Part shown: one piece after another, positions 14,717 through 28,579 of the stretch
Layout: every line of letters starts with the position of its first letter
Numbering within the stretch: the stretch's first letter is position 1
From: Pirellulaceae bacterium
GTDB taxonomy: Bacteria > Planctomycetota > Planctomycetia > Pirellulales > Pirellulaceae
Assembly: GCA_023382975.1 (NCBI GenBank)
Contig: JAHDXO010000004.1
Location: forward strand, 1 to 64,000
DNA: 64,000 nt
Direction of reading: 5' to 3'
The notes under the pieces: generated by a model
Databases searched by the model: none
The model's input: only the letters and a program-made list of their open reading frames with translations
Told to the model about the DNA's origin: nothing
Program-made: the position numbers and the translations under genes

Positions 14717-14827
14717 ATTGGCGGGCGGGTTGCATTCGGCTCGCGGAACGACTACGCTTTTCCATCGCATTTCGCCGTCGCGAAGTGCTTTCTGTTCTCC
14801 AGATTGCCGCCGGGAATTGCCAAAACC

Positions 14828-17800
14828 ATGCCTGCCATCCAACGTTTGCTGGTCGCCAACCGCAGTGAAATCGCCATTCGTGTCTTTCGCACCGCGCACG
14901 AATTGGGCATTCGGACCGTGGCCATGTACGCCTACGAGGACCGCTACGCCCTGCATCGGTTGAAGGCGGACGAATCGTACCAGATCGGCCGGCCTGGCGA
15001 GCCGATTCGGTCCTATTTGGACATCGAGGCGATTGTGGCGCTGGCCAAGCAGCACGACATCGACGCGATTCATCCGGGCTACGGGTTCCTGTCGGAAAGC
15101 GCGCCGCTGGCTCAGGCCTGCGCCGATGCGGGCATCACGTTTGTCGGTCCCCGCGTCGACACTTTGCAGCAGTTGGGCGACAAGATCAGCGCCCGCAAGA
15201 TCGCTCAGCAGGCCGGTGTTCCCGTGCTGAGCGGCAGCAGCGAACCGATCAGCGACGCGGCGGCGGGCATCGCAACGGCGACCAAGCTGGGATTCCCCGT
15301 GATGATCAAGGCGGCTCACGGCGGCGGCGGCCGAGGGATGAGGGCGGTCCACAGTGCGGAAGCGTTTCCGGATGCGTTCGAGATGGCTCAGCGCGAATCG
15401 TTGACCGCGTTCGGCAGCACCGACGTGTTTGTCGAAAAGTTGGTCAACCGGGCCCGCCACATCGAAGTCCAGTTGCTGGGCGACCGGCAGGGCAATCTGA
15501 TGCATCTGTACGAACGCGACTGCTCGGTCCAACGGCGACACCAGAAGGTGGTCGAAATCGCGCCGGCACCCAACCTTGACCCGAAGGTTCGCGAGGCGTT
15601 GTGCGAAGCCGCGTTGGCCATCGGCCGGGTGGTCAACTACGAAAACATCGGCACGGTCGAGTTCCTGCTGGACGCGGACTCGAACGAATTTTACTTCATC
15701 GAGGTCAATCCGCGGATCCAGGTTGAGCACACCGTCACCGAACAAGTGACCGGCATCGACATCGTCAAGACGCAGATCCTGATCGCCCAAGGCGCCGCGC
15801 TGACCGGTCCCGAGATCGGACTCACGTCGCAGGCCGAGATCCGCACCCACGGTTTCGCGGTCCAGTGCCGCGTGACCACCGAAGACGCGGCCAACGGCTT
15901 CCGGCCCGACTACGGCCGCATCGCGCATTACCGGTCCGCCTCGGGGATGGGCATCCGGCTGGATGCCGGAACCGCGTTCTCCGGCGCCGTGGTGTTTCCC
16001 TATTACGATTCCCTGCTGGTCAAAGTGACCGCCTGGGCTCGGCGTTTCAAGGATGCCACGATGCGGATGGAGCGCTGTCTGCGCGAGTTCCGCGTCCGCG
16101 GCGTGAAGACCAACATCCCGTTCCTGATCAAGCTGATGCTGCATCCGGAATTTCAGGCGGGCCAGTGTACGACCCGGTTCATCGACGAAACCCCCGGGCT
16201 GTTCGCGTTTCCGGAGCAGCGGGACCGGGCCACCAAGGTGCTGACCTACCTGGCGGAAACGACGATCAACGGCAATCCCCACGTCAAGGGTCGGCCTGTC
16301 AGCAAACGCCGCCTGCCGGCGCCCGTGCCGCAGGTCGATCCCAAGGCGCCGATCCCCGGCGGCTTGCGGCAGAAACTGAAGGAACTGGGCGCTGAGGCGT
16401 TCAGCCGCTGGATCTTGGAACAGAAGCGGCTGTTGATAACCGATACGACATTCCGCGATGCGCACCAGTCGCTGCTAGCCACCCGGCTGCGGACCCGAGA
16501 TCTGGTCAACATCGCCGACGCCTACGCCCGGTTGCTGCCCGACTTGTTTTCGATCGAGATGTGGGGTGGGGCCACCTTCGACACGTCGATGCGGTTTCTG
16601 AGCGAGTGCCCGTGGCAGCGTCTGGCGGAACTCCGCACCCGGATGCCGCACACGCTGTTCCAGATGCTGCTGCGCTCGTCGAACGCGGTCGGCTACACCA
16701 ACTATCCCGACAACATCGTCGAAGCGTTCGTCGACGAAGCGGCCGCGGCGGGCATCGACGTGTTCCGCATCTTCGACGCGTTGAACTGGATGCCCAACAT
16801 GCGGGTGGCCATGGACGCGGTGCTCAGGAGCGGCGCGATCTGCGAGGCGGCGATCTGCTACACGGGCGATATCCTCGATCCGGCTCGAACGAAGTACGAC
16901 CTGAAATACTACGTGGACCTGGCCAAGCAACTCGAAAAGATGGGCGCCCACATCCTGGCCATCAAGGATATGGCCGGCTTGTGCAAGCCCTACGCGGCCA
17001 AACTGCTGGTCGAAACGCTCCGGCAGGAGATCGGCATCCCGATCCATTTCCACACGCACGACACGGCCGGTGTCCAGGCCGGCGCGATCCTGAAAGCGTC
17101 GGAGGCCGGCGCCCACATCGCGGACACCGCGATGGCTCCGCTGTCCGGCGGCACCTCGCAGCCCAATCTGAACACGCTGGTCGAAGCCCTCCGCTTCACC
17201 GACCGCGACACGGGACTTTGCGCCGACGCGATCGACTCGCTGGCCGTCTACTGGCGGGCGGTTCGCGAGTTTTACACGCCGTTCGAGAGCCCGACGCTGG
17301 CGGCCGGCGCCGACCTGTACCGCCACGAAATGCCCGGCGGCCAGTACACCAACCTGTTCGAACAGACGCGCGCGCTGGGCCTGGCCGACCGTTGGGAAGA
17401 AGTCTGCCGCGTCTATGCCGACGTGAATCAGTTGCTGGGCGATATCGTCAAGGTCACGCCGACTTCGAAGGCCGTCGGCGACATGGCCTTGTTCCTGGTC
17501 ACCAAGGATCTGACATGCGACGACGTGCTGGATGAATCGCGCGACATCGCATTTCCCCAGTCGGTCATCGACTTGGTCAACGGTCGCATGGGTCAGACGG
17601 TGGGTGGCTTCCCGTCGCTGGTGCGAGACCGGATACTGCGCGGCGAGAAGCCGCTGGAGGGCCGAGCCGGCGACCAACTGCCGCCGGCGGACTTCGATGC
17701 GGCGACGGCCAAGCTGACGTCGTTGCTGGGCCGCGAGCCGACGCGGCAGGAGGTGTTATCGCATCTGCTGTACCCCGCGGTTTTCGAGGACTTTGCTCAG

Positions 17801-18271
17801 CACCAACAGAAGTACACCGACACCAGCAGCCTGCCCACGCCTGCGTTCTTCTTCGGTTTGGAGCAGAACGAAGAGATCGCCGTGGAACTGGAGGTCGGCA
17901 AGATGCTGTACGTCAAGTTCCTGACGTCCAGCGATCCGCATGACGACGGCACGCGGACCGTGTTCTTCGAACTCAACGGTCAACCGCGGCACGTCACCGT
18001 GGTCGATCAATCGCTGGTCGAGAAAGGCACGCGAAGCAAGAAGGCCGATCCGGGCGACGACCGGCAGGTAGGCGCCAGCATGCCGGGCATGGTGGCCAGC
18101 GTGGCGGTCCGCCCCGGGGACCAAATCGCCAAGGGGCAGAAACTGCTGATGCTGGAGGCCATGAAGATGCAGACGACCATCGTCGCCCAGCGCGACGGCA
18201 AGGTTCAAGACGTCCTGATCAAACCCGGCAGCCAAGTGGAAACCGGCGACCTGCTGCTTCGCTTCGAATAG
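14828..18271 (+). CDS. pyc: Pyruvate carboxylase
   Basis: The 1147-aa single-chain enzyme carboxylates pyruvate to oxaloacetate with ATP and bicarbonate, an anaplerotic step in the cytoplasm. The biotin carboxylase domain comes first (ANRSEIAIRVFRTAHELG, HPGYGFLSE, ATP-grasp loop HGGGGRGMR, EVNPRIQVEHTVTE). The carboxyltransferase domain follows from ~530 (DTTFRDAHQSLLATRLR, FEMWGGATFD-like FSIEMWGGATFDT, HTHDTAG). The biotinyl domain is C-terminal, with EAMKM and the biotinylated Lys at ~1113. Length and domain order match the alpha4 pyruvate carboxylase. ATG 14828 is preferred over an in-frame TTG at 14804. It converges on speA. Confidence 0.97.
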   Translation: MPAIQRLLVANRSEIAIRVFRTAHELGIRTVAMYAYEDRYALHRLKADESYQIGRPGEPIRSYLDIEAIVALAKQHDIDAIHPGYGFLSESAPLAQACADAGITFVGPRVDTLQQLGDKISARKIAQQAGVPVLSGSSEPISDAAAGIATATKLGFPVMIKAAHGGGGRGMRAVHSAEAFPDAFEMAQRESLTAFGSTDVFVEKLVNRARHIEVQLLGDRQGNLMHLYERDCSVQRRHQKVVEIAPAPNLDPKVREALCEAALAIGRVVNYENIGTVEFLLDADSNEFYFIEVNPRIQVEHTVTEQVTGIDIVKTQILIAQGAALTGPEIGLTSQAEIRTHGFAVQCRVTTEDAANGFRPDYGRIAHYRSASGMGIRLDAGTAFSGAVVFPYYDSLLVKVTAWARRFKDATMRMERCLREFRVRGVKTNIPFLIKLMLHPEFQAGQCTTRFIDETPGLFAFPEQRDRATKVLTYLAETTINGNPHVKGRPVSKRRLPAPVPQVDPKAPIPGGLRQKLKELGAEAFSRWILEQKRLLITDTTFRDAHQSLLATRLRTRDLVNIADAYARLLPDLFSIEMWGGATFDTSMRFLSECPWQRLAELRTRMPHTLFQMLLRSSNAVGYTNYPDNIVEAFVDEAAAAGIDVFRIFDALNWMPNMRVAMDAVLRSGAICEAAICYTGDILDPARTKYDLKYYVDLAKQLEKMGAHILAIKDMAGLCKPYAAKLLVETLRQEIGIPIHFHTHDTAGVQAGAILKASEAGAHIADTAMAPLSGGTSQPNLNTLVEALRFTDRDTGLCADAIDSLAVYWRAVREFYTPFESPTLAAGADLYRHEMPGGQYTNLFEQTRALGLADRWEEVCRVYADVNQLLGDIVKVTPTSKAVGDMALFLVTKDLTCDDVLDESRDIAFPQSVIDLVNGRMGQTVGGFPSLVRDRILRGEKPLEGRAGDQLPPADFDAATAKLTSLLGREPTRQEVLSHLLYPAVFEDFAQHQQKYTDTSSLPTPAFFFGLEQNEEIAVELEVGKMLYVKFLTSSDPHDDGTRTVFFELNGQPRHVTVVDQSLVEKGTRSKKADPGDDRQVGASMPGMVASVAVRPGDQIAKGQKLLMLEAMKMQTTIVAQRDGKVQDVLIKPGSQVETGDLLLRFE

Positions 18272-18327
18272 CCTGCAGGCGTTCCATTCCGTTCCGCGAG
18301 ACGTCCCGGTGTCGGCCCGTGTTCGTC

Positions 18328-20253
18328 TCAGCTCTCTTCGGGAGATTCTTCCAGGTAGGTGTAACCGCGGAGGCCCTCTTCGTAGACGCGGACGAAGCGG
18401 CCGGCTTGTTGATGGTCGATCAGGCCGCGGCGCACGGCGACTTCGACAGCGTTTTGCAACTGGTTCAACAGGTCGCGGTCCTTGTACTGCACGTACTCCA
18501 GCACCTCGCTGACCGTGTCGCCGCGGATGATCGAGGCCAGTACGATCTCGCCTTCGTCCGTCAAATCGACATGCACCGCGTTGGTGTCGCCGAACAGGTT
18601 GTGCAAATCGCCCAGGATTTCCTGGTAGGCGCCTAGCAGGCAGACGGACAGCAGGTAGGGCGATCCGTCGAAGCGATGGACAGCCAGCGAACGCTTGACG
18701 TCGCGGCGGTCGATGAACTTGTCGATCTTGCCGTCCGAGTCGCAGGTGACGTCGCCCAGCACCGCGCGGCGGGTGGGCCGTTCGTTCAGGCGGTGGACGG
18801 GCATGATGGGAAACAACTGGTTGATCGCCCAGCTATCGGGCATCGATTGGAACAGCGAAAAATTGCAGAAGTAGGTATCCGAGAGCATCGCGTCCAGACC
18901 TTCGAGTTCCTCGGGCACGTACTCCAATTGCTCGACCATCCGCTGGATGCGGTGGCAGATGCCGAAGAAGATCTTCTCGGCCAGGTAGCGGTGTTCCAGC
19001 GGCAGGTAGCCCGTGCTGAACAGGCTCATCGCCGTATCCAGCGACTGCGTCGCGTCGTGGAAGCTTTCCAGCACGTTCCGCAGAGTCAGGTCGTGGTAGG
19101 TCATCAGCAGATCGTGCAGCGGCTGCTCGACGTCGTCGTCCAATTGCTTGGGCAACTCGTTGCGGAACCCTTGTTCGGAGACCCCCAGCACGCCGAAGAC
19201 CAGCACGCTGTGGTAGGCCGCCACCGCGCGGCCGCTCTCCGAAATGATGTTCGGATGCGGAACGTTGGCATCGTCGCAGACGGTCTGGATGTGGTAGACG
19301 ACGTCGTTCGCGTATTCCTGCAAGCTGTAGTTCATGCTGGATTCGAAGTTCGTCTGCGAGCCGTCGTAGTCGACCCCCAACCCGCCGCCGATGTCCAGGT
19401 ACTCCAGGCCGGTCCCGCGGCGCGCCAAGTCGACATACACCCGCGCGGCCTCGTTGATCGCCGCTTTGATGTGGCGGATGTTGGTGATCTGGCTGCCCAG
19501 ATGGAAATGCAGCAGCTTGAAACAGTCGCTCATGCCGCGCGCCCGCAACACGTCCAGCGCTTCGAGGATCTCCCCGACGGTCAGACCGAATTTCGAACGG
19601 TAGCCGCCGGACGATTGCCAGCGGCCCGAGCCGCGCGCGGCCAACTTGATCCGCATCCCGATCTGCGGCCGCACGCCTACGCGTTCGGCGTACTTCAGAA
19701 TCAAGTCCAGCTCCGTAAATTTCTCGACCACCGGGATCACGTGCCGGCCGATCCGCTGTGCCAGCATGGCCATCTCGATGAACTCGGCGTCCTTGAAGCC
19801 GTTGCAGATGATCGGCATCCCCGGTTCCGTCATCGCCACAACCGCCAGCAACTCGGGCTTGCTGCCGGCTTCGAGTCCGAACCCGTAGTTCCGGCCGTGA
19901 CCGACGATCTCCTCGACGACCTGCCGCTGCTGATTCACCTTGATCGGGTAGACGCAGCCGTAGCTGCCCTTGTAGTCGTGCTGTTCGATCGCCTGCTTGA
20001 ACACATCGTGCAGTTCCCGCAAGCGGTCTTTCAGAATGCCGTTGAAACGCAACAGGATCGGCAGTTCGAGCCCGCGCATCTGCAATTGGTCGACCAGCGT
20101 CTTCAAGTCGATCTTGCGCTGCGGGTCTTTTTCCGGGTGAACGCACAGATGGCCCTGCGGACTGATGGAGAAGTACCCATTGCCCCAGCGCGGCAAGTCG
20201 TACAGATCCATCGCTTCGGCAATGGTCCAAGGCGAAGTCACTTGTTCGATCAC
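18328..20253 (-). CDS. speA: Biosynthetic arginine decarboxylase
   Basis: This PLP enzyme converts arginine to agmatine, the first step of the agmatine route to polyamines. Seen are the PLP lysine in YPIKVNQQRQV (~residue 105), LLHFHLGSQI, the phosphate-binding GGGLGVDYDGS and the substrate/dimer region CDSDGK in the C-terminal domain. The length (~641 aa) fits SpeA. I chose GTG 20253, which has GAGGA seven bases upstream and puts the usual WTIxEAxDLY opening near the N-terminus. The frame extends to a GTG at 20310, but that start lies inside a dispersed repeat (20300-20413), so those residues are probably not translated or are recently acquired. It is co-oriented with acnA. Confidence 0.94.
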   Translation of the reverse strand: MIEQVTSPWTIAEAMDLYDLPRWGNGYFSISPQGHLCVHPEKDPQRKIDLKTLVDQLQMRGLELPILLRFNGILKDRLRELHDVFKQAIEQHDYKGSYGCVYPIKVNQQRQVVEEIVGHGRNYGFGLEAGSKPELLAVVAMTEPGMPIICNGFKDAEFIEMAMLAQRIGRHVIPVVEKFTELDLILKYAERVGVRPQIGMRIKLAARGSGRWQSSGGYRSKFGLTVGEILEALDVLRARGMSDCFKLLHFHLGSQITNIRHIKAAINEAARVYVDLARRGTGLEYLDIGGGLGVDYDGSQTNFESSMNYSLQEYANDVVYHIQTVCDDANVPHPNIISESGRAVAAYHSVLVFGVLGVSEQGFRNELPKQLDDDVEQPLHDLLMTYHDLTLRNVLESFHDATQSLDTAMSLFSTGYLPLEHRYLAEKIFFGICHRIQRMVEQLEYVPEELEGLDAMLSDTYFCNFSLFQSMPDSWAINQLFPIMPVHRLNERPTRRAVLGDVTCDSDGKIDKFIDRRDVKRSLAVHRFDGSPYLLSVCLLGAYQEILGDLHNLFGDTNAVHVDLTDEGEIVLASIIRGDTVSEVLEYVQYKDRDLLNQLQNAVEVAVRRGLIDHQQAGRFVRVYEEGLRGYTYLEESPEES

Positions 20254-20299
20254 AGGCAAGTCCTCGGGGGAAAGGCCGATGGGGTCGGAAGTTGTTCTG

Positions 20300-20413
20300 T
20301 TGGAGTTCACGCTTCAGCGTGTCTGTGTGCTTTCGTCCCCCTTGCCGCAAAACGCGACGGCAAGGCAGCACGGGAAGTCAATAAAGGGAGACGCGCTGAA
20401 GCGTGAACTCCAA
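20300..20413. repeat. Dispersed inverted repeat, family A (best copy)
   Basis: The left arm at 20300-20323 (TTGGAGTTCACGCTTCAGCG...) and right arm at 20390-20413 (...CTGAAGCGTGAACTCCAA) are complementary at 23 of 24 positions, around a 66-base centre. The element lies between acnA and speA and overlaps the longest possible speA reading frame. Related copies lie at 9177-9256 and 49781-49842. It encodes no protein, so it is a REP/MITE-like non-autonomous repeat by appearance. Confidence 0.85.
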
Positions 20414-20425
20414 CGCCAGGGTCTC

Positions 20426-23146
<2,721 letters not shown>

Positions 23147-23743: not shown

Positions 23744-24973
23744 ATGTCGGGAGAGTCAGTCGCCTTTGTTCACGCTTCCGATTTTCATTTGGAACAACCG
23801 CCTTATGGACTGACGGAGATTCCGGACCATCTGCGCCAGATCTTGGCGGATGCTCCGATGCAGGCGGCGGCGCGCGTGTTCGAAACGGCCATCTTGGAGG
23901 ATGTCGACTTTGTGCTGCTCTCGGGCGATCTGGTCGATCCTCAAACGTCCGGAGCCCGCGCGCTGGCATTTTTGTTGGAGCAATTCGAATTACTCCGCGA
24001 GCAACGGATCGCCGTGTACTGGATCGGGGGCCAATTGGACGGTCCCGACCGCTGGCCCGAGGAATTAGTTCTGCCCGACAACGTGCAACTGTTTCCGCGG
24101 GGCCAGTTGAAGCAGTGCCTGTTCCGGCGCAACGATCACCCGGTGGCGACGATCATCGGCGTCAGCTCGGGGGGCGACGGCGCGGTCGATGCCGGCTTGT
24201 TCCGCATCGAGCCGACCGACCGGTTCACAGTGGCGTTGGCTTATGGCCGCACGGAGGCCAGTTCGCTGGCCGGCTACAAACAGATCGACTATTGGGCGCT
24301 GGGCGGGTTGCATCAGGCCAAGACGCTGTTCCAGTCGCCTCAGACGGCCTGTTACCCGGGCAGCCCGCAAGGCCGCTCGATCGATGAACCCGGCCTGCAT
24401 GGCTGTACGCTGGGCCGCGTCGACCGGGGCCGAACGGCTCAGACGAAGTTCATCCCCACCGACTGTCTGCGGTGGTGCAGCGAATCGATCGCCATGCCCG
24501 AGAGCACACACCGCAACGACCTGCAACGCCATCTGCGCGGCAGGATGCAGCGGATCGCGGCCGAGGCGAACGGCTGCAGCATTCTGATGGCCTGGCAGAT
24601 CGAGACAGAGGGAGCGTTGGCGGGCCAATTGCGAGGCGGCCTGGACCGCGAGCTGGTCGATTGGCTGCGGACCGAATTCGGCCGCGCCCAGCCAGTGGTC
24701 TGGACGACGGAGTTGAAGGTCAAGTCGTCGGCCGTCGTGCCGGCGGAGAGTTACGAGGAAGATACGATCCTGGGCGATTTCCTGCGCGCCGTCCGCCAGC
24801 ATCGGCAGAACGAGCGGATGCCGCTGGATTTCACCGGCTACTTGCCCGAGCGCGGCAAGAATCGTGCGTTGGCCGCTGTGTTCGACACGGGCGAAGACGT
24901 TTCGCGTCTGGGCCTGCTCGAAGAAGCGGCCGCTTTGGGAGCTGACCTGTTGCGGGGCGAAGATGTCCTCTAA
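23744..24973 (+). CDS. Degenerate SbcD/YhaO-like metallophosphoesterase
   Basis: ATG 23744 has an excellent GGAGGTG site upstream; 409 aa. The N-terminal calcineurin-like fold is clear: HASDFHLEQP (Asp13, His15) and LLSGDLVDP (Asp62). The other metal and catalytic motifs are broken. GNHD reads GQLD (96-99), the later His of the 'vllaHG' strand is Tyr (ALAYG, ~167), and GHxH reads GGLH (187-190). Mre11/SbcD nucleases need these ligands for Mn-dependent cleavage, so this protein is probably not a nuclease and may have become a structural or DNA-binding partner. The C-terminal capping region (~260-409) is retained. It sits 42 bases upstream of the SbcC-like ATPase. An alternative is residual one-metal activity. 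Confidence 0.82.
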   Translation: MSGESVAFVHASDFHLEQPPYGLTEIPDHLRQILADAPMQAAARVFETAILEDVDFVLLSGDLVDPQTSGARALAFLLEQFELLREQRIAVYWIGGQLDGPDRWPEELVLPDNVQLFPRGQLKQCLFRRNDHPVATIIGVSSGGDGAVDAGLFRIEPTDRFTVALAYGRTEASSLAGYKQIDYWALGGLHQAKTLFQSPQTACYPGSPQGRSIDEPGLHGCTLGRVDRGRTAQTKFIPTDCLRWCSESIAMPESTHRNDLQRHLRGRMQRIAAEANGCSILMAWQIETEGALAGQLRGGLDRELVDWLRTEFGRAQPVVWTTELKVKSSAVVPAESYEEDTILGDFLRAVRQHRQNERMPLDFTGYLPERGKNRALAAVFDTGEDVSRLGLLEEAAALGADLLRGEDVL

Positions 24974-25015: not shown

Positions 25016-28000
25016 GTGAGAATCACCGATGTGGAAATCGAAGGCTTCGGCGCCTGGAGCGACCTCAAGCTGGATCACGTATCCGAAGGGCTGACGGTCT
25101 TCTACGGTCCCAACGAAGCGGGAAAAACGACGCTGATGGAGTTCGTCCGCAGCGTGCTGTACGGCTATTCGGCCGAGCGCCGCAGCCGCTATCTGCCGCC
25201 GGTCGCGGGTGGCCGGGGCGGTGGCGCCCTGGACGTGGTCGGCGCCGGCGGGCGATTCACCATCCGGCGGACGCCCGGCAGCTTGAACGGCGACGATTTG
25301 GGACGCGTCGAGGTGCTGTCGCCGCAGGGATCGCGTCAAGGCCAGCACGTGTTGGGATCGCTGCTGTCGGGGATCGACGAACCGATCTTCAACAACGTGT
25401 TTGCCGTCGGGCTCCGCGAGCTTCAGGAACTGGGCACGCTGGACGACACCGAGGCGGCTGCTCACCTTTACAAGCTGACCAGCGGCCTGGACCGCGTTTC
25501 GCTGATCGATGTCATGCGGCAATTAGAAGCGGCCCGCAACCAGATCCTGGCCGCCGACGGCAGCCGGTCCGAATTGATCGAATTGATCGAACAGCGCGAC
25601 GCGCTGCGCGCGGAGATCAAGGAACTGGCGGTCAGCGGCCAGCGTTGGACGCAACTGGCCGCCCAACGGTCCGCCCTGCAAGAGGAACTCCAACGCCTGG
25701 ACGAAAATATCGACCGGATGGAACGCGAATCGCGGGCGGTCGAAGTGGCGATCCAAGTGCGTGCCGATTGGAAACAGCGCATCGACGCCTCGCAGAAACT
25801 CGAAAAACTGGGGCGTCCCGTCCAGCTTCCCGAGCGGGCGGTCGAACGCATCGATGCGATGCAGAAGGAGATCGCCGAACACCGCGAGGCGATCGAACAG
25901 ATCAAGCGGCGCCGCCGGGTGATCGTCGAAGAGGCCAACGCCCAACCGATCAACCGGCAATTGTGGACCCATGCGGGCCGGATCGAAGCCCTCTGCGAGC
26001 ATGCCCCGTGGATCGGTTCCCTGGAGACGCAAGTCAAGCAATTGCACGACGAGATCGACGAACTCCAGCAGACGCTCCGCACCCAATGGGAGCGGCTGGG
26101 ACTTGGTCCCGGCGAGATCCCTGAGATCACTCCGGAGCTGTCGCACCGCACCCTGACCGCACTCCGTTCGCCCGCCCGCGCCGTCCAGGACGCGCAGCAG
26201 CGTATCCAGGACGCTCAGGCGGAACGCGACGCGGTGCGGCGCGAGGCCGAGGAGATCGGCAAGCAGCTTCAGGCGGAATTGGCGGAAACCGGCGAGACGG
26301 AACTGGAGCGGGCCTTGGACGAAGCCGGTCACCGCGTCGGCAGATTCCGGCGGCTGGTTCAACTGGAGGAACGGATCGAGAAACTCGATCGTCATCGCAA
26401 GGAATTGGAACAGGACCGTCGCCAATTGCTCGAAGAACAAGTGCTCCCCGTCCAGACGCTGATCTGGTGCGGCGTGCCCTTCGTCGTCGGTGTGGCCATG
26501 ATCCTCGCCTCGTTCCTGTGGGATTGGGTGGCGAAACTGGGTTGGACCGTGACGATCCTGGGTTTCGCGTGCTGGGCTCTGGCCGTGGTGACCAAACTGC
26601 TGCTGGAGAAGTCGCTGGGGAGCGATCTGGATGCCTGTGTGCGGCAGATCGACAAAGTCAAGCGTCAACTGCGGACGCTGGCCGAAGAGCGCGAGCAACT
26701 CGACCAGCAACTGCCCTCGGGCGGCGGACCGCTGGATGCGCGCGTCAAAGCAGCCGAACAGTACGTCAAGCGACTCGAAGAACTCACGCCGCTGGACGCC
26801 AAGCGGCAGGCCGCGCTCAACGGCTCCGAAACGACCAAGGAGAAGGCCAGTCGCGCCGCGGAAGATCTCCGCGAAGCCCAGCAGCAATGGCGCGCCGCTT
26901 TGCGCTCGGTCAACCTGCCCGAGTCCTTCCGGCCCGAACACATCCAGCAGTTGTCGGAAGGCAACGACCAGACCGTGCAACTCGGTCGCCGGCTGCAGAT
27001 GCGCCGCCAGGAACTGCAGGAACGCGAAACCGAGCTGACGACGATCACCAAACGCGTCGAAGAATTGATGAAGGACGTTCACATCACGGCTGCCAGTTCC
27101 GACCCACGCACGCAACTGCGCCAGGTCGCCGCGGCAATGACCGAGCAGCGGCAATGGATCGCGCGCCGCCGGGAGATCCGGCAGGAACACCGCGACTTGA
27201 AACGCCGCTTCCGGGACGCCGCGGGAAAACTCCGGAAACTGTTGCTCCAGCGAAGGACCCTGCTGCAGCAGGCCCATGTCAGCGACGACGACCAACTGCG
27301 CAAGCTGGCCCAGCGTCAGGCCCGCATCCAGGAACTGACCAACCTGCGCAACGACTTGAACCAACGGATCAAGCTGTCGATCGGCAGTCAATGCACCGAG
27401 GCCGCGGTGGGCGAGGTGTTGCAGACGCACGGCGACGACCGCTTGGAATCCTACTGGGAGCGTTTGCTGGCTCGGTTGCAGGACGCCCAGTCGAAGCTGA
27501 CCCAACTGCACGAACACCGTGGCCAGATGGTGCAGGAGATGAAGTCGCTGTCCGAGGACCGCCGCTTGGGCGACGCCAAACTCAAGCTCGGGACCGTCGA
27601 GGAACGCATCCGCCGCGACGTCCAACGCTGGCGCGTGCTGGCCGTTACCAGCCTGATGCTCGAGGCTATCCGGCAGATCTACGAGACGGAACGGCAACCC
27701 GAGACGCTGGCCGAAGCCAGCACCTACCTGGTGCGTCTGACCGAAGGCCGCTACCAACGCGTCTGGACGCCGCTGAGCGAAGACATCCTGCGAGTCGACA
27801 CCGCCAACGGCGAATCGCTGCCGCTGGACGTGCTCAGCCAAGGCACGCGCGAAGCCGTGTTCCTCAGCCTGCGTCTGGCGCTGGCCGCTGCCTACGCCCG
27901 GCGCGGCGCCTTGCTGCCGCTGGTCCTGGACGATGTGCTGGTCAATCTGGACGTGAAGCGAGCCAAAATGGCCGCCGAAGTGCTCCGCGATTTTGCCAGC

Positions 28001-28579
28001 AGCGGTCACCAGATGATGTTGTTCACGTGCCACCATCACATCCTCCGCATCTTCCAGGCGGCGGGCGTCGAAGTCCGCCTGCTGCCGGTGCGCAACGGCA
28101 TGGACCAATCCGATTGGGCCGACGAAGACGAATTGCTCGAACGGCAAGTGGTCGAGGATGAAGCCCAAGAAGAGATCGAGGAAGTCGAAGACGTCGCGGA
28201 AGTCGCCGAACCGAAGATGCAGGAACCCGAAGTCGTCGCGGAGCAAGCCCCCGAACCCGAAGCGGCCAGCGAGCCCGAGGAACTCGAAGAGGAAGAGGAA
28301 CCAGACCAAGTCGAGGAAGTTGCTGAGGAACCCGAGGAAGAACTCGAAGTGGAAGAGTTCGAGGACGAGGAAAGTGAGTTCCACGACACGTCGATGGACG
28401 ACCAGGACGAAGACCCCGGCGATCAAGACGAGGATTTCGGCGATCCGGACGAAGCGGCGCGCCCACTGTGGGACGACCTGCAAGAGCTGCGACTGGCCGA
28501 CGACGACCGTTACGCCCTGCAACCCGCGGGCGCCGACACCGGCCACTACGCCGCTCGCTGGTGGGAGCAACAAGACTGA
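25016..28579 (+). CDS. SbcC/YhaN-like AAA ATPase with membrane helices in the coiled coil
   Basis: GTG 25016 opens MRITDVEIEGFGAWSDL, the standard YhaN/Rad50 beginning; 1187 aa. Walker A is GPNEAGKTT (31-39). Long coiled-coil arms (~180-470 and ~535-900) flank two hydrophobic helices (~480-502, IWCGVPFVVGVAMILASFLW; ~510-535, WTVTILGFACWALAVVTKLL) where Rad50/SbcC would have a zinc hook; no CxxC is there. The C-terminal ATPase half has the VLSQGTREAVFLSLRLAL signature, Walker B LPLVLDDVLVNLD and CHHH after it. An acidic Glu/Asp-rich tail (~1036-1150) is appended. It is encoded with the SbcD-like protein, so they likely form a complex, perhaps tethered to the membrane, in DNA repair or chromosome handling. 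Confidence 0.85.
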   Translation: MRITDVEIEGFGAWSDLKLDHVSEGLTVFYGPNEAGKTTLMEFVRSVLYGYSAERRSRYLPPVAGGRGGGALDVVGAGGRFTIRRTPGSLNGDDLGRVEVLSPQGSRQGQHVLGSLLSGIDEPIFNNVFAVGLRELQELGTLDDTEAAAHLYKLTSGLDRVSLIDVMRQLEAARNQILAADGSRSELIELIEQRDALRAEIKELAVSGQRWTQLAAQRSALQEELQRLDENIDRMERESRAVEVAIQVRADWKQRIDASQKLEKLGRPVQLPERAVERIDAMQKEIAEHREAIEQIKRRRRVIVEEANAQPINRQLWTHAGRIEALCEHAPWIGSLETQVKQLHDEIDELQQTLRTQWERLGLGPGEIPEITPELSHRTLTALRSPARAVQDAQQRIQDAQAERDAVRREAEEIGKQLQAELAETGETELERALDEAGHRVGRFRRLVQLEERIEKLDRHRKELEQDRRQLLEEQVLPVQTLIWCGVPFVVGVAMILASFLWDWVAKLGWTVTILGFACWALAVVTKLLLEKSLGSDLDACVRQIDKVKRQLRTLAEEREQLDQQLPSGGGPLDARVKAAEQYVKRLEELTPLDAKRQAALNGSETTKEKASRAAEDLREAQQQWRAALRSVNLPESFRPEHIQQLSEGNDQTVQLGRRLQMRRQELQERETELTTITKRVEELMKDVHITAASSDPRTQLRQVAAAMTEQRQWIARRREIRQEHRDLKRRFRDAAGKLRKLLLQRRTLLQQAHVSDDDQLRKLAQRQARIQELTNLRNDLNQRIKLSIGSQCTEAAVGEVLQTHGDDRLESYWERLLARLQDAQSKLTQLHEHRGQMVQEMKSLSEDRRLGDAKLKLGTVEERIRRDVQRWRVLAVTSLMLEAIRQIYETERQPETLAEASTYLVRLTEGRYQRVWTPLSEDILRVDTANGESLPLDVLSQGTREAVFLSLRLALAAAYARRGALLPLVLDDVLVNLDVKRAKMAAEVLRDFASSGHQMMLFTCHHHILRIFQAAGVEVRLLPVRNGMDQSDWADEDELLERQVVEDEAQEEIEEVEDVAEVAEPKMQEPEVVAEQAPEPEAASEPEELEEEEEPDQVEEVAEEPEEELEVEEFEDEESEFHDTSMDDQDEDPGDQDEDFGDPDEAARPLWDDLQELRLADDDRYALQPAGADTGHYAARWWEQQD

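Follow-up and report, generated by a model that had tools for sequence, protein, structure and literature searches.

The locus raises the question of whether a gene of the SbcD type, in which the metal-binding residues are altered, still encodes a nuclease and, if not, what its product is kept for. The gene lies in the window (the whole stretch of DNA that was analysed, 64,000 nucleotides from a Pirellulaceae bacterium) as a single open frame on the + strand. The features of the gene are as follows (counts refer to 154 orthologues):

23744..24973, + strand: degenerate SbcD/YhaO-type gene, 409 aa (translation, Pfam, AlphaFold, structure match, alignment)
23780..23788, + strand: codons D13-F14-H15, retained site-1 ligands (Mre11 D8 and H10); D in 145/154, H in 127/154
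23927..23929, + strand: codon D62, retained bridging ligand (D49); kept in 123/154
24032..24037, + strand: codons Q97-L98, lost N84 and catalytic H85 (GNHD to GQLD); N in 1/154, H in 1/154
24242..24244, + strand: codon Y167, lost site-2 ligand H173; His in 75/154, Tyr in 45/154
24305..24313, + strand: codons G188-L189-H190, lost H206 and retained H208 (GHxH to GGLH); H206 position His in 0/154 and Gly in 146/154, H208 kept in 119/154
24740..24793, + strand: aa 333-350, C-terminal PAESYEEDTILGDFLRAV segment, which is well conserved among the degenerate proteins

Translation of the frame gave the motifs HASDFH (D13, H15), SGD (D62), GGQLD (Q97, L98), ALAYG (Y167) and GGLH (G188, H190), exactly the changes, and the intact D13, H15 and D62, that had been read in an earlier note on this DNA. 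Ligands were numbered after P. furiosus Mre11, in which we take metal site 1 to be D8, H10, D49 and H208, and metal site 2 to be D49, N84, H173 and H206 (after Hopfner 2001). Four of the seven ligands (D13, H15, D62, H190) are present in the window protein and make up a complete site 1; the other three, N84 (Q97), H173 (Y167) and H206 (G188), are gone, as is the catalytic H85 (L98). The pattern of loss is specific: site 1 is retained and the ligands exclusive to site 2 are absent. The same note had stated that most metal ligands were lost, which goes too far with four of the seven in place; the loss concerns site 2 and the catalytic His. At the level of profiles, the protein was matched by Pfam Metallophos (calcineurin-like phosphoesterase, 2.9e-5) and did not pass the curated SbcD model TIGR00619 (18.8 bits against a cut-off of 77.65).

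The fold was modelled with AlphaFold2, using a 50-row alignment (A1) as input. The model (pLDDT 89.9, pTM 0.83; final 80 residues less certain) had Mre11 and SbcD structures as its closest relatives in the PDB (Foldseek, 4e-16), and was superposed on Mre11 (5dny_C) with a Z score of 24.8 and 3.3 Å over 275 residues. The nuclease and capping fold of Mre11 is present (Z 22-25 to relatives), which bears out the retained fold that the earlier note had assumed. Profile-profile comparison aligned the degenerate protein with its canonical YhaO-type paralogue over the full length (100%, E 2.7e-54, 399 columns). Conservation of the PAESYEEDTILGDFLRAV segment is 2.68 bits among the degenerate proteins and 2.12 bits in the canonical paralogue; AlphaFold2 predicted a helix (342-355) that overlaps it, and the segment is a candidate ATPase-binding helix.

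The distribution of the gene was assessed at two levels. The SbcD-like query was matched in 59 of 60 genomes of the GTDB family of the window and, among 57 genomes drawn evenly across the order (evidently Pirellulales), the degenerate gene was found in 50, three of which were placed by score only. Named records with the gene include Roseimaritima, Adhaeretor, Pirellula, Rhodopirellula and Rubripirellula. The orthologue set consisted of 154 distinct sequences of the order, each of at least 380 aa with an open frame. The site was altered in every one of them: all seven ligands were found together in 0/154, against 44/45 canonical homologues, with H206, N84, H85 and H173 retained in 0, 1, 1 and 75 rows respectively, and the four ligands of site 1 were complete in 110/154 (71%). 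On the tree, every degenerate row fell on one side of a single branch (SH-aLRT 94.6, a branch not starred). Read from this alignment, the active-site loss is an old, fixed and order-wide trait, far beyond chance or sequencing error. Homologues from a sister order of the same class are even more degenerate, with a full site 1 in 0/5; these five (L170-L174) are without nearly all ligands, and D8 is gone in each. A planctomycete outside the class (L197; G132:C174, 1666-3321) carries a similar loss (GLVD/GGYH) beside a hairpin-bearing ATPase; it sits elsewhere in the tree and possibly represents an independent loss. Literature searches found no description of a degenerate planctomycete SbcD.

The SbcD-like gene is directly followed by a gene for a large ATPase, the features of which are as follows:

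25016..28579, + strand: YhaN/SbcC-like ATPase, 1187 aa, GTG start, obligate partner (ORF, Pfam, neighbourhood)
25106..25129, + strand: Walker A, GPNEAGKT (motif reading)
26441..26593, + strand: predicted central membrane hairpin, aa 476-526 (hydropathy)
27836..27952, + strand: ABC signature SQGTRE and Walker B LVLDDVLVNLD (motif reading)
28109..28576, + strand: long acidic C-terminal tail, 44% D/E, ending WWEQQD (sequence)

The GTG start lies 42 bases downstream of the SbcD-like stop codon. The partner was recognised by AAA_27 (69.9 bits, cut-off 22; 3e-19), in agreement with the SbcC/YhaN-like ATPase named earlier, and the operon is conserved: the ATPase gene adjoins the SbcD-like gene, which lies directly upstream of it, in 84/84 loci. 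Across these loci no conserved neighbour was found beyond the pair; most of the other ORFs that recurred were shadow frames of the pair itself, and only 8 loci had a UvrD-like gene. Further upstream in the window (14804-23146) lie pyruvate carboxylase-like, arginine decarboxylase-like and aconitase-like ORFs, which look ordinary in sequence and are not conserved beside the pair. The window ATPase has an intact Walker A, signature, Walker B and H-loop, as do its orthologues wherever these motifs could be read; the CxxC zinc hook of Rad50/SbcC is absent from the window ATPase. The predicted hairpin lies where the coiled coil is expected to have its tip. By hydropathy, such a hairpin was found in 119/121 ATPases paired with the degenerate protein and in 0/18 of the soluble ATPases paired with the canonical one. 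A WW motif occurs within the last 60 aa in 46/109 of the degenerate-paired ATPases.

The canonical pair occurs in the genome of the window as well: a second SbcD-like protein there (L051) has GNHD and GHxH, and the ATPase that belongs to it lacks a hairpin. The SbcD of this soluble pair scored strongly in 15 of the 57 genomes of the order, so that the degenerate pair is found in more genomes than the intact soluble one (50 vs 15); 36 genomes carry the degenerate pair without the soluble pair, some of them with weaker SbcD-like matches. The counts above (119/121 vs 0/18) suggested that the hairpin tracks nuclease loss, an idea that was rejected: hairpin ATPases adjoin intact nucleases in other planctomycetes (L183, L185, L193), in a Listeria pair (L284; hairpin predicted at aa 428-474 of YhaN, YhaO intact) and in Natrinema, where YhaN has a membrane hairpin and YhaO is intact. 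The anchor alone is therefore no sign of a non-nuclease role, and, because hairpin YhaN stands beside intact YhaO in Listeria, Natrinema and other planctomycetes, the membrane hairpin is probably older than the nuclease loss, i.e. ancestral. In the Pirellulales lineage, a YhaO/YhaN pair has very probably lost its nuclease activity. The Listeria record (OR846780.1) is filed as a phage; it carries a chromosomal-type yhaO-yhaN pair and is evidently host DNA.

That the window protein does not cut DNA is the safest of our inferences, because the single change H85S is enough to abolish both exo- and endonuclease activity of P. furiosus Mre11 (PMC8007570, PMC8824468). The SbcD-like protein is thus, very probably, nuclease-dead, a conclusion well supported by the residues that it has lost. 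The retained site 1 was weighed separately. Its four ligands occur together in 110/154 rows where 74 would be expected under independence, and, of 8 independent pairs counted on starred (supported) branches, D49 and H208 changed in parallel in 5.8 and in opposite ways in 0.0 (median p 0.03). The remaining pairs of site-1 ligands point in the same direction, with too few pairs for significance, and the site-2 ligand H173 showed no joint-loss pattern in the tests read. Joint retention and joint loss suggest that site 1 is a genuine single-metal site in the majority of members, which probably do bind a metal. H10, D49 and H208 each changed about 20-24 times on the tree; because site 1 was lost repeatedly while the pair was kept, metal binding cannot be essential to the shared function and is dispensable for whatever maintains the gene pair.

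The best surviving alternative is a one-metal enzyme, in which site 1 (D13, H15, D62, H190) would hold a single metal and chemistry would persist, possibly that of a weak phosphodiesterase or one directed at a different substrate. The behaviour of the four ligands as a set, unlike that of H173, is what such an enzyme would leave behind; the catalytic His85 is nevertheless gone in 153/154, the site was lost over and over in lineages that still keep the pair, and none of the five sister-order homologues has it in full. We consider this alternative unlikely. A site 1 that is kept although the catalytic residues are gone, next to an ATPase with intact motifs, could also be explained by a regulator, in which the vestigial site would sense Mn, Fe or a nucleotide and control the ATPase; since the operon persists in members without site 1, this is judged improbable. 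Equally improbable is a complex that still cuts DNA with residues supplied by the partner or by the adjacent loops WALGG and YW.GG: W93, W104 and G188 are conserved near the old site in a family-specific manner, but the positions of N84, H85 and H206 are variable or Gly, and no acidic residue or His has newly become conserved in their place. The gene is under purifying selection: dN/dS was 0.09-0.24 across several pairs, several of them near synonymous saturation, and 0.09 in the best-suited pair (L002 vs L204, dS 0.58), i.e. about 0.1. A pseudogene in decay or an assembly error, which the departures of the active site from that of the SbcD family might suggest, has a negligible chance and is refuted by this dN/dS, by frames of at least 380 aa open in all 154 orthologues and by order-wide retention with the same substitutions fixed.

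With these alternatives weighed, the reading that we favour, with moderate confidence, is a derived YhaO/YhaN (SbcE) complex that is nuclease-dead and anchored in the membrane; its SbcD-like subunit would have a structural role in a clamp or tether for DNA that is driven by ATP. The mechanism would be as follows. The gene pair would encode a derived complex of the Rad50-Mre11-like type; the SbcD/YhaO-like subunit, its nuclease lost, would serve the ATPase structurally, as VPS29 serves retromer; the hairpin in the middle of the coiled coil would anchor the ATPase in the membrane, so that the ATP-driven heads and the SbcD-like dimer would extend into the cytoplasm; and the complex would hold DNA at the membrane, as a clamp or tether, and leave it uncut. 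The parts of this reading differ in strength. It is likely that the SbcD-like protein is a structural subunit of the adjoining ATPase, which it would contact. DNA is the most likely ligand because of the family, and a DNA-membrane tether as the job of the complex is put forward tentatively. Retention of site 1 in 110/154 counts against a pure scaffold, because a scaffold would not need ligands. Planctomycete membranes are heavily invaginated. More tentative still is an order-wide SMC-like machine, in which a non-cutting subunit of former Mre11 type would form part of a membrane-anchored, ATP-driven tether between the inner membrane of planctomycetes and their nucleoid.

The earlier proposal of a non-nuclease partner agrees with the fold, the operon and the altered site, and it withstood the check that its author had named, since no orthologue had the seven ligands intact; it left out site 1, complete in 71% of orthologues, the membrane anchor and the ligand-intact soluble paralogue. 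On the sequences compared, the loss of the SbcD active site is to be read as real, selected and order-wide, within a YhaO/YhaN-type complex with a predicted membrane anchor. The pair would then be a natural separation-of-function experiment, a Mre11-Rad50-like machine with a dead nuclease and an intact ATPase throughout an order. If this is true, selection must act on the structural job (tethering, clamping or membrane attachment) by itself.

Among known systems, the pair most resembles YhaO/YhaN (YhaN is SbcE in Bacillus subtilis), with the same gene order and an AAA_27 ATPase without a CxxC hook. The pair of Listeria has, like the window ATPase, a membrane hairpin predicted midway along YhaN; the YhaO proteins of Listeria, Microvirga, Methylotuvimicrobium and Natrinema have GNHD and GHxH intact, whereas the window protein has lost site 2 together with the catalytic His. 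Unlike the soluble partners of canonical proteins, ATPases of the window type usually carry a C-terminal tail of at least 60 aa (101/111 vs 0/17). With SbcCD/Mre11-Rad50 the pair shares the Mre11 nuclease and capping fold beside a Rad50-like ATPase, but it falls below the SbcD cut-off, its active site is broken and it has no CxxC hook. The B-subunits of eukaryotic replicative DNA polymerases are likewise inactivated calcineurin-like phosphoesterases and obligate structural subunits of a DNA-acting enzyme; their partner and lineage are other than those of the SbcD-like protein. VPS29 is a metallophosphatase-fold scaffold that has retained metal-binding properties and is not an active phosphatase (PMC3101248). 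The likeness is that the same fold may serve as a rigid scaffold: VPS29 is a eukaryotic trafficking protein, sequence kinship is not claimed, and the analogy is one of working only.
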